64,000 bases of DNA. Source: an uncultured Campylobacterales bacterium. GTDB lineage: Bacteria; Campylobacterota; Campylobacteria; Campylobacterales; Arcobacteraceae. Shown here piece by piece: positions 49,360 through 52,360 of the stretch. The first letter of the stretch is position 1. The number at the start of each line of letters is the position of its first letter. The notes below the pieces were generated by a model, which was given only the letters and a program-made list of their open reading frames with translations, was not told the DNA's origin and searched no databases. The translations under genes and the position numbers were made by a program. Location: contig CANNFB010000007.1 of the NCBI GenBank assembly GCA_947503785.1, positions 1 through 64,000 of the forward strand. Direction: 5' to 3'.

Positions 49360-50361
49360 ATGATTAAAAGAGAGTTTTTACAAAAGCACGAAAAATTAGA
49401 TTTTAAATTCTATCAAAATGTTGATGATTTTATTGTTGAAGAAGTTCCCATTAAATTTAAAGGTCGTGGTAATTTTATAATTGCAAAGATTAAAAAAACT
49501 AGATTAGGAACTTGGGATTTATTAGAAAGTTTAGCAAAGGGCTTACGAATTTATGAAAATGAATTAGGCTATGCAGGACTTAAAGATAAAAATGCAACAA
49601 CAACTCAATATATATCAATTCCAAAAAAGTATTCAAAAGATTTAAAGCAATTTAGACATAATAAAATTAAAATTTTAGAAACTACACTTCATGGAACAAA
49701 ACTAAATATTGGAGATTTAATTGGAAACTCTTTTGAAATAAATCTTCATGAAGTTAAAGCACAAGATGTTGGAAAAATTGAAAAACTTCTAAAGCAAATT
49801 TCTACTGTTGGTATGCCAAATTATTTTGGTTATCAAAGATTCGGTCGTGATGGTAAAGAAAACTTAGAGAAAGCTAGAAGATATATTTATGAAGATTATC
49901 AAATCAAAGATAGAAAAATATCTAAGATGTTAGTATCAGCTTATCAAAGTGACTTTTTTAATAAATGGTTAGTTGAGAGATTGAGTTTATGTGAAGATAC
50001 ATTTAAGCCAATGGATGGTGATGTATTTAGAGAGTATAGAAGTGATGAGTTTTTTACACCAAAGAATCTAACACCTGAAATGTTAAATGACTTTAATGAT
50101 AAAAAAATAGTACCTACAGGATTATTACCTGGAAATAAAGCATTTAGAAGTATCAAAGATGCAAGAGAAATTGAAGAAAAGTATGATGATACTTATATTC
50201 AAGAAAAAGGTTATAGAAGAGATGCTGTTGTTTATCCTAAAGATATAAGTGTACAGTATGATAAAAATACCAGTAAGTGTAAAGTTAAATTTACATTGCC
50301 AAAAGGCTCGTATGCTACAGTTCTAATTGAAAATATTGCTAATAGAAACCTAAGAGCTTAG
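49360..50361 (+). CDS. truD: tRNA pseudouridine(13) synthase TruD
   Basis: The 333-residue enzyme converts U13 of tRNA (chiefly tRNA-Glu) to pseudouridine. The TruD catalytic motif GYAGLKDKNATTTQY holds the nucleophile Asp76; FGYQRFGRDG and the C-terminal PKGSYATVLIENI (following the KFTLP strand) are further family marks. Length is near that of E. coli TruD (349). It has its own promoter and ends inside the stem of a bidirectional terminator shared with the thioredoxin gene. Confidence 0.95.
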   Translation: MIKREFLQKHEKLDFKFYQNVDDFIVEEVPIKFKGRGNFIIAKIKKTRLGTWDLLESLAKGLRIYENELGYAGLKDKNATTTQYISIPKKYSKDLKQFRHNKIKILETTLHGTKLNIGDLIGNSFEINLHEVKAQDVGKIEKLLKQISTVGMPNYFGYQRFGRDGKENLEKARRYIYEDYQIKDRKISKMLVSAYQSDFFNKWLVERLSLCEDTFKPMDGDVFREYRSDEFFTPKNLTPEMLNDFNDKKIVPTGLLPGNKAFRSIKDAREIEEKYDDTYIQEKGYRRDAVVYPKDISVQYDKNTSKCKVKFTLPKGSYATVLIENIANRNLRA

Positions 50362-50370
50362 GTTTCTATT
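50341..50370. terminator. Bidirectional terminator between truD and thioredoxin gene
   Basis: A perfect 14-bp inverted repeat (AATAGAAACCTAAG, 2-base centre) contains the stop codons of both convergent genes. Confidence 0.8.
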
Positions 50371-50743
50371 TAGTAGAAGTGTTTGTAAAATATTCTTTTT
50401 CATATTTTTTTAGTTGTTCAACACTTCGAACTCCTAGTTGTTTACCAACAATTTGTCCATTTTCTAGATAAATTAAAGTAGGAACACCTTTAATTTGAAA
50501 TTGTGCTGCAAGAAGTTCTTGTTCTTGAATATCTAGTTTATAAATTTCTACGTTATCTTGTTTGCTTGTATTATATTTTGTCAAGTTTTTACCTAAAACC
50601 TTACAAGACCCTCACCAAGTAGCATAAAAATCAATAATTACATTTTTGTTTTTAATTTTATCTTCAATATTTTCAAGAGTTAAATGTTCAAATGCAAATA
50701 ACGATGAAAAACTTAAAAAGAAAATTACAAGTAATTTTTTCAT
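50366..50743 (-). CDS. Secreted thioredoxin-fold selenoprotein (UGSC motif, UGA read as selenocysteine)
   Basis: The minus-strand frame from ATG 50743-50741 (behind AAGGAT) encodes a signal peptide (MKKLLVIFFLSFSSLFA) and a thioredoxin fold: IIDFYATW, then TGA at 50614-50612 (codon 44), then GSCKVLGKNL, and later KGVPTLIYLENGQIVG with the cis-proline. The UGA stands exactly where the first Cys of WCxxC belongs. An 11-bp hairpin with a GG-containing loop starts 6 bases after it. Read through, the product is 125 residues, a normal periplasmic thioredoxin length. It would be a thiol/disulfide reductase with selenocysteine in the active site. A nonsense mutation is possible but the hairpin argues against it. 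Confidence 0.85.
50579..50605 (-). promoter_or_regulatory. Bacterial SECIS-like hairpin
   Basis: On the minus strand TGTAAG-GTTTT pairs with AAAAC-TTGACA (one A-G mismatch, one G-T pair) around the 5-base loop AGGTA. The stem begins 6 bases, and the loop GG 18 bases, after the UGA at 50612. Bacterial SECIS elements bound by SelB have this distance and a guanine-containing apical loop. Confidence 0.75.
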
Positions 50744-50905
50744 TTTATTAATCCTTTATAAATTTTAGAAAGTATAGTTTTTCTATGTGTAGTCTTTGTT
50801 AAGAAAAGATAAACAATTTAAATAAGACAAATTTTATCTTATTTTATAAATAGTTTTGATATCTTATTTTTTACAAATTATATATTTTATTAAAAGAGAA
50901 AAATT

Positions 50906-52360
50906 ATGAAATTAAATGACTTAAAAGTTGATATGGATTATTTCCATATAGATGAAAAATTATATCAAAAACTAAACCCAACACCTTTGAAAAATCCAAA
51001 ATTAGTATCTTTCAATAAAAAAGCCTGTGATTTAATAGATTTAGATTATGGTGAATGTGAAACACAAGAATTTTTAGATCTTTTAAATGGTGTTAAAACT
51101 TTAGAAAATTCACAAAGCTATTCTATGGTTTATGCAGGTCATCAGTTTGGATATTTTGTTCCACAATTAGGTGATGGACGTGCTATAAACTTAGGAAAGG
51201 TAAAGTCATGGCATTTACAAACAAAAGGCTCAGGACTTACTAAATACTCAAGACAAGGGGATGGAAGGGCAGTGCTTCGTTCTTCCATTAGAGAATATAT
51301 TATGAGTGAAGCTATGCATGCTTTAGATATTCCAAGTACAAGAGCTCTAGCTATTATTGACTCAGATACCTTTGCTCATAGAGAATGGGAAAAAGAGTCT
51401 TGTTCTGTTGTGATGAGAATGTCACCTTCTTGGGTAAGAATAGGTACTTTCGAGTTTTTTGCAAATACAGAGAACTCAAAAGAAAATACAACAAAACTTG
51501 CAGATTATGTAATAGAACAAAATTATGCACATTTAAAAGATGAAAAAAACAAGTATGAAAAAATGTTTTATTCTTTAGTTGATAAAACAGCTTCAATGCT
51601 CGCACGTTGGCAAGTATATGGATTTATGCATGGTGTTATGAATACTGATAACTTCTCAATGGCAGGTGTTACTATTGATTATGGTCCCTTTGCTTTTATG
51701 GATTATTTTGACAAAAACTGTATTTGTAATCATACAGATGGGGAAGGGCGATATTCGTATAATAATCAGCCATACGTAGCTAGATGGAATTTGAGTGTAT
51801 TAGCTAATGCCTTAAGAGAAATATGTGATGAAGATAAACTTCTTGAATATTTGAAAACATTTCTTCCTCAGCATGAAAATGTATACTTAGAACTAATAAA
51901 TCAAAGACTTGGACTGCTTGCGAATAAAAGTGGAAATAGAAATCTTGATTTAATCTTAGAACTTTTAGGAGCATTAGAAACTTCTAAAATGGATTACAAT
52001 GTATTCTTTCACAGATTAACATCTTTAAAATCTTTTAATGATTTATCTTCAATTACTAACTTTTGTGTATTTAGAGAGCCTTTAGAAAAATGGTTTGATT
52101 CATATAGAAAAGTTTGTGAAAAAGAAGAAAGTAGTTTTGAGCAAAGACATGAAATAATGAAAATAGTAAACCCTAAATATATAATCAAAAACTATATGCT
52201 TCAAGAAGCAATTGAGTTAGCTCATACGGGAGATTATTCACTAGTAAATGATTTATTTGAAATTGCACAAAATCCGTTTGATGAACATAAAAAATATGAT
52301 AGATACTCAAATCCTACACCAATGGAATTTGCAAATATAAAACTTTCTTGTTCTTCTTAA
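50906..52360 (+). CDS. selO: Protein adenylyltransferase SelO (YdiU family)
   Basis: The 484-residue pseudokinase-like enzyme transfers AMP from ATP to proteins. Family marks include VYAGHQFGYFVPQLGDGRAI near residue 75, LQTKGSGLTKYSRQGDGRAV, the catalytic NTDNFSMAGVTIDYGPFAF and FDKNCICNHTDGEGRYSY. The protein ends in LSCSS; in animal SelO the corresponding residue is selenocysteine, and here it is the cysteine coded by TGT. Its neighbour in the opposite direction is the selenocysteine thioredoxin gene, with 162 bases between; shared regulation is not evident. Confidence 0.96.
   Translation: MKLNDLKVDMDYFHIDEKLYQKLNPTPLKNPKLVSFNKKACDLIDLDYGECETQEFLDLLNGVKTLENSQSYSMVYAGHQFGYFVPQLGDGRAINLGKVKSWHLQTKGSGLTKYSRQGDGRAVLRSSIREYIMSEAMHALDIPSTRALAIIDSDTFAHREWEKESCSVVMRMSPSWVRIGTFEFFANTENSKENTTKLADYVIEQNYAHLKDEKNKYEKMFYSLVDKTASMLARWQVYGFMHGVMNTDNFSMAGVTIDYGPFAFMDYFDKNCICNHTDGEGRYSYNNQPYVARWNLSVLANALREICDEDKLLEYLKTFLPQHENVYLELINQRLGLLANKSGNRNLDLILELLGALETSKMDYNVFFHRLTSLKSFNDLSSITNFCVFREPLEKWFDSYRKVCEKEESSFEQRHEIMKIVNPKYIIKNYMLQEAIELAHTGDYSLVNDLFEIAQNPFDEHKKYDRYSNPTPMEFANIKLSCSS

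Follow-up and report, generated by a model that had tools for sequence, protein, structure and literature searches.

Thioredoxins that carry selenocysteine (Sec) form a catalogued family, counted among the experimentally characterised ones in a 2026 review (PMC13188914, PMC1794560). For the epsilonproteobacteria, Cravedi et al. (PMC4607533) give one annotated Sec thioredoxin by 2015, besides Fdh, SelD and SelW, and describe a hairpin that is short and has an invariant G in its loop. Arcobacter has been found to contain DsbC and DsbD and not the classical DsbA/DsbB (PMC4460558). Oxidative-stress genes have been found enriched around SELO genes (PMC3281104). Our search of the open-access literature, with most subscription journals lying outside it, found no paper on a signal-bearing Sec/Cys thioredoxin subfamily of the Arcobacteraceae.

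Here we describe such a gene from a marine Arcobacter-type bacterium with a genome of 2.76 Mb, estimated to be 100% complete. The window, by which we mean the whole stretch of 64,000 nucleotides that was analysed, contains a thioredoxin gene in which an in-frame UGA at codon 44 very probably encodes selenocysteine, so that Sec would be the first catalytic residue of a signal-bearing thioredoxin. Its features are as follows.

50366..50743, minus strand: coding sequence of the Sec-thioredoxin, 125 amino acids plus a TAG stop (50368-50366), under purifying selection before as well as after the UGA
50612..50614, minus strand: in-frame UGA, codon 44, at the first active-site position of W-U-G-S-C
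50603..50605, minus strand: TGT codon of the resolving cysteine (C47), aligned with the second Cys of WCxxC proteins
50693..50743, minus strand: N-terminus resembling a signal peptide, with probable cleavage after SLFA17 (by eye)
50480..50482, minus strand: codon of the cis-proline (P88) of the thioredoxin fold, in the sequence GVPTL
50752..50757, minus strand: ribosome-binding-site-like AAAGGA upstream of the ATG, taken from the sequence

An earlier, sequence-only reading had reported one frame at 50366-50743 with a signal-like N-terminus, IIDFYATW, TGA, GSCKVLG and GVPTLIYLENG; frame and motifs are confirmed and the coordinates are right, and the strand, which had been left unstated, is the minus strand, with the gene running from 50743 to 50366. 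The frame reads MKKLLVIFFLSFSSLFAFEHLTLENIEDKIKNKNVIIDFYATW-U-GSCKVLG...GVPTLIYLENG...TSTK-stop with a single TGA (codon 44, 50614-50612), giving a hydrophobic signal-like N-terminus followed by IIDFYATW-U-GSC and then the cis-proline loop GVPTL, and the same frame on the plus strand over 50366-50743 has stops throughout. With Cys placed at the TGA the product matches PF00085 over residues 20-114 (2.8e-23, 82.3 bits against a gathering cut-off of 23.5), and because this match runs across the UGA the minus-strand frame is not a chance reading. The closest NCBIfam model, the thioredoxin equivalog TIGR01068, scores 88.9 bits, just below its curated cut-off of 96.8, and the protein is therefore not filed under that equivalog. 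The hydrophobic N-terminus is kept in the aligned relatives, its signal character being judged by eye; the nearest named relative found for the gene, in Poseidonibacter ostreae, is 88% identical. An AlphaFold2 model built from a three-row alignment had a mean pLDDT of 52.5, too poor for interpretation, and scans for promoters and terminators gave nothing beyond chance. A standard gene caller offers just a TTG-started ORF of 72 amino acids at the locus, the very artefact that had been predicted and with which the ORF listing agrees, and a redox protein reduced in this way to a fragment readily goes missing from proteome databases.

The thioredoxin gene lies between two genes on the opposite strand, both named by eye.

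50906..52360, plus strand: selO-type gene, Cys form, ending ...SCSS, divergent head-to-head neighbour
49360..50361, plus strand: truD-like gene, convergent neighbour, conserved in the genus

The head-to-head pairing with selO occurs at 11 loci in three genera, the source locus included, and involves a UGA copy at all but one of them (L017). The intergenic region between selO and the Sec-thioredoxin may hold a common regulatory site. Thioredoxin loci adjoined by dsbD number 44, of which 42 are Cys and two Sec (L037 and L069). The Sec form is often head-to-head with selO, and the Cys form is mostly beside dsbD. In the source genome a full dsbD is found on a different contig, where it has no thioredoxin neighbour, so that the link to DsbD is here by homology only.

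The Sec-thioredoxin is likely a periplasmic disulfide reductase. It would be exported, as predicted from its signal-like N-terminus; the targets attacked by the selenolate of U44 would then be the disulfides or sulfenic acids that periplasmic proteins carry, and C47 would act as the resolving residue, as the thioredoxin fold and the UxxC motif suggest, and the membrane reductase DsbD would probably re-reduce the oxidised protein. We consider this role of DsbD somewhat better than an even prospect, because dsbD is the neighbour of most Cys relatives and of two Sec copies. A function without DsbD, for example one linked to peroxide or to selO or served by another donor, would rival only the functional half of our account, and we hold it to be a serious if minority possibility: selO, not dsbD, is the commoner conserved neighbour of the Sec loci tested, where flanks of only about 1.5 kb leave neighbour absences not firm, and the oxidative-stress genes of SELO neighbourhoods (PMC3281104) point the same way, but UxxC proteins of the thioredoxin class need a reductant, DsbD is a periplasmic one present here, and dsbD does adjoin those two Sec copies. 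For the reductase with DsbD as its partner, the head-to-head arrangement hints weakly at regulation shared with selO, perhaps by oxidative stress. The fullest picture, in which periplasmic reduction in the Arcobacteraceae would have a branch that depends on selenium and leads from DsbD to the Sec-thioredoxin, in which Sec and Cys copies existing in parallel would swap roles between species, and in which selO would be co-regulated via a conserved divergent promoter region, is offered tentatively and is as a whole rather doubtful.

Alternation of TGA and Cys codons at one site usually marks Sec/Cys exchange. Across 72 homologues, drawn from Campylobacterales genomes and selected partly by a motif expecting U or C at the site, the codon at the active-site position is TGA in 23, TGT in 42, TGC in 7 and anything else in none, in agreement with the claim of the sequence-only reading that the TGA stands at the first-Cys place of WCxxC; every row discarded from the set was a DsbD domain and none a homologue with a different residue. 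Internal TAG or TAA codons in some search rows proved, once the fetched loci were examined, to be the terminal stops of shorter proteins. TGA-bearing homologues come from 20 Arcobacteraceae genomes, the source genome included, and from one genome of another family. This last (L136 in genome G428, from another family of the order) is the sole UGA homologue noticed outside the Arcobacteraceae; its hairpin is intact, and horizontal transfer is possible. Because the same codon is conserved in independent congeners, the TGA at 50612-50614 is not a sequencing error, a contingency that the earlier reading had itself raised.

That reading had also made the assignment hinge on selB and tRNA-Sec, and both are present in the source genome, together with selD and a selA-like ORF. 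Against a cut-off of 242.25 bits the selB gene scores 290.7, and selD reaches 347.4 bits against 125, while the tRNA-Sec, with anticodon UCA, scores 49 bits against a gathering value of 47 and is called tRNA-SeC by ARAGORN; the selA-like ORF adjoins it in the opposite direction and was named by eye from its position, without a profile. A TPP riboswitch (L001, 1863-1974, 80.2 bits) lies about 270 bases downstream of the tRNA-Sec. Three further genes with an in-frame TGA share one contig, C17, of this genome (G000).

C17:1049-1969: selD with in-frame TGA (L104)
C17:21946-23475: fdhA with in-frame TGA (L109)
C17:54486-54698: selW with in-frame TGA (L138)

With the Sec-thioredoxin these make at least four predicted selenoprotein genes. 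Among 91 genomes selB exceeds its cut-off in 19 of the 20 Arcobacteraceae genomes with a UGA copy versus 42 of 71 others (Fisher 0.0024). Genome G006, UGA-bearing with an assembly 86% complete, has neither selB nor tRNA-Sec over cut-off, and since selB, selA and tRNA-Sec all lie within about 3.4 kb in G000, one assembly gap could explain both absences. The UGA case outside the Arcobacteraceae, G428, has both.

SelB and tRNA-Sec would decode the UGA under the guidance of a hairpin within the coding sequence, starting 10 nt after the UGA.

50583..50601, minus strand: SECIS-type hairpin inside the coding sequence, at bases 14-32 with the U of UGA as base 1, stem 14-20/26-32
50594-50590, minus strand: hairpin loop AGGUA, with an invariant G at +22

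Its core stem (five pairs, 16-20/26-30) is intact in 22 of 23 UGA genes versus 7 of 49 Cys genes, with a Fisher value of 1.7e-11 that overstates independence because the homologues are related; in the one exception, L089, inspection by eye shows pairing shifted by one base, and G at +22 is found in all 23. The 19 distinct UGA sequences show compensatory changes on both sides at pairs 16-30, 17-29 and 19-27. Covarying cells number 19 against a shuffled mean of 6.9, with 0 of 500 shuffles as high and slid controls at 0-3, in a shuffle control that leaves the relatedness of the sequences in place. Few variants exist, and so neither the number of pairs changed on both sides (3) nor that of pair types exceeds the shuffles; the signal lies in the consistency of joint change. 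Folded as a single sequence the hairpin is thermodynamically unremarkable (z -1.0), and its case therefore rests on covariation. Across six congeners the longest invariant stretch of the gene, 35 nt, begins six bases past the initial U of the UGA. Codons 47-56 are free of synonymous changes, and variable sites are 1 of 15 in codons 47-62 against 28 of 57 elsewhere (p 0.0027). Hairpins of this type, loop G included, also follow the UGA in selD, fdhA and selW (selW by eye). A loose SECIS pattern run over the genome was uninformative (571 matches versus 562 in the control). An E. coli-like bulged U17 is not conserved here, because base 17 pairs with base 29 and covaries with it (UA to CG).

Could the UGA instead be read as Cys or Trp, whether by a suppressor tRNA, by reassignment of the code or by near-cognate readthrough? 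Relatives do have Cys at the site, but TGA terminates 3 of 44 long ORFs in the window, so there is no genome-wide recoding of UGA, and the genome has a Sec-decoding system and a SECIS-type hairpin that tracks the UGA; we regard such a reading as very improbable. That the UGA is a true stop in a decaying pseudogene, which would need only the standard code and would suit the fragments of standard annotation, is scarcely credible with the same-codon TGA kept in about 20 species, dN/dS of about 0.13-0.25 upstream and 0.11-0.56 downstream of the UGA, which indicates purifying selection, and a hairpin that covaries. Decoding as selenocysteine, as first proposed from the letters of the gene, is strongly supported in comparative genomics by the machinery, the covarying hairpin and the strict TGA/Cys alternation, and this assignment is much firmer than the step that involves DsbD.

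In a protein tree with the UGA masked as Cys, all 23 Sec rows fall in one weakly supported group (83/81), within which three Cys rows (L017, L088 and L091) are nested, and at least four label changes are required. L017, from genome G001, has TGT CCA at the site and keeps the hairpin letter for letter; since TGT replaces TGA while the hairpin is unchanged, it is best read as an apparently recent Sec-to-Cys change with the hairpin a fossil. G001 still has selB, plus a second UGA-bearing paralogue, L094, and G003 has the reverse arrangement, with L018 Sec and L088 Cys. A second paralogous group, mostly of the same genus and without the W before the active site, comprises L089, L090 and L094 with UGA and L088 and L091 with Cys, so that UGA/Cys alternation is seen there too. 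Locus L019 (genome G009, about 1501-2278) has tandem Sec and Cys (WCDIC) thioredoxins on one strand beside selO. The pair L018 (Sec) and L017 (Cys), two closely similar proteins of one genus that differ at the same site, with L017 still bearing a hairpin no longer needed, provides a natural matched comparison for asking why Sec is used.

The kind of protein is thus already known. The catalogued Sec thioredoxin (PF00085, UxxC; WP_010956703.1, PMC13188914; Zhang and Gladyshev 2006, PMC1794560) has in common with ours the fold, the Sec-first UxxC and decoding by SelB and SECIS; the Arcobacteraceae protein itself has a signal-like N-terminus, and it adds Sec/Cys switching at clade level and the selO and dsbD neighbours. 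The selenoproteins that Cravedi et al. described in 2015 (PMC4607533) are from the same phylum and have the same short loop-G hairpin, and the Sec thioredoxin annotated there is given without a species in the text. Comparable too is the DsbD-linked Cys thioredoxin of the Arcobacteraceae (e.g. L064 and L082, WCPPC), of the same sequence family with a signal-like N-terminus and the same fold, which differs in having Cys for Sec, in mostly lacking the hairpin and in being adjoined by dsbD rather than selO. What looks distinctive is a subfamily, predicted to be secreted and nearly confined to the Arcobacteraceae, in which Sec and Cys are exchanged.
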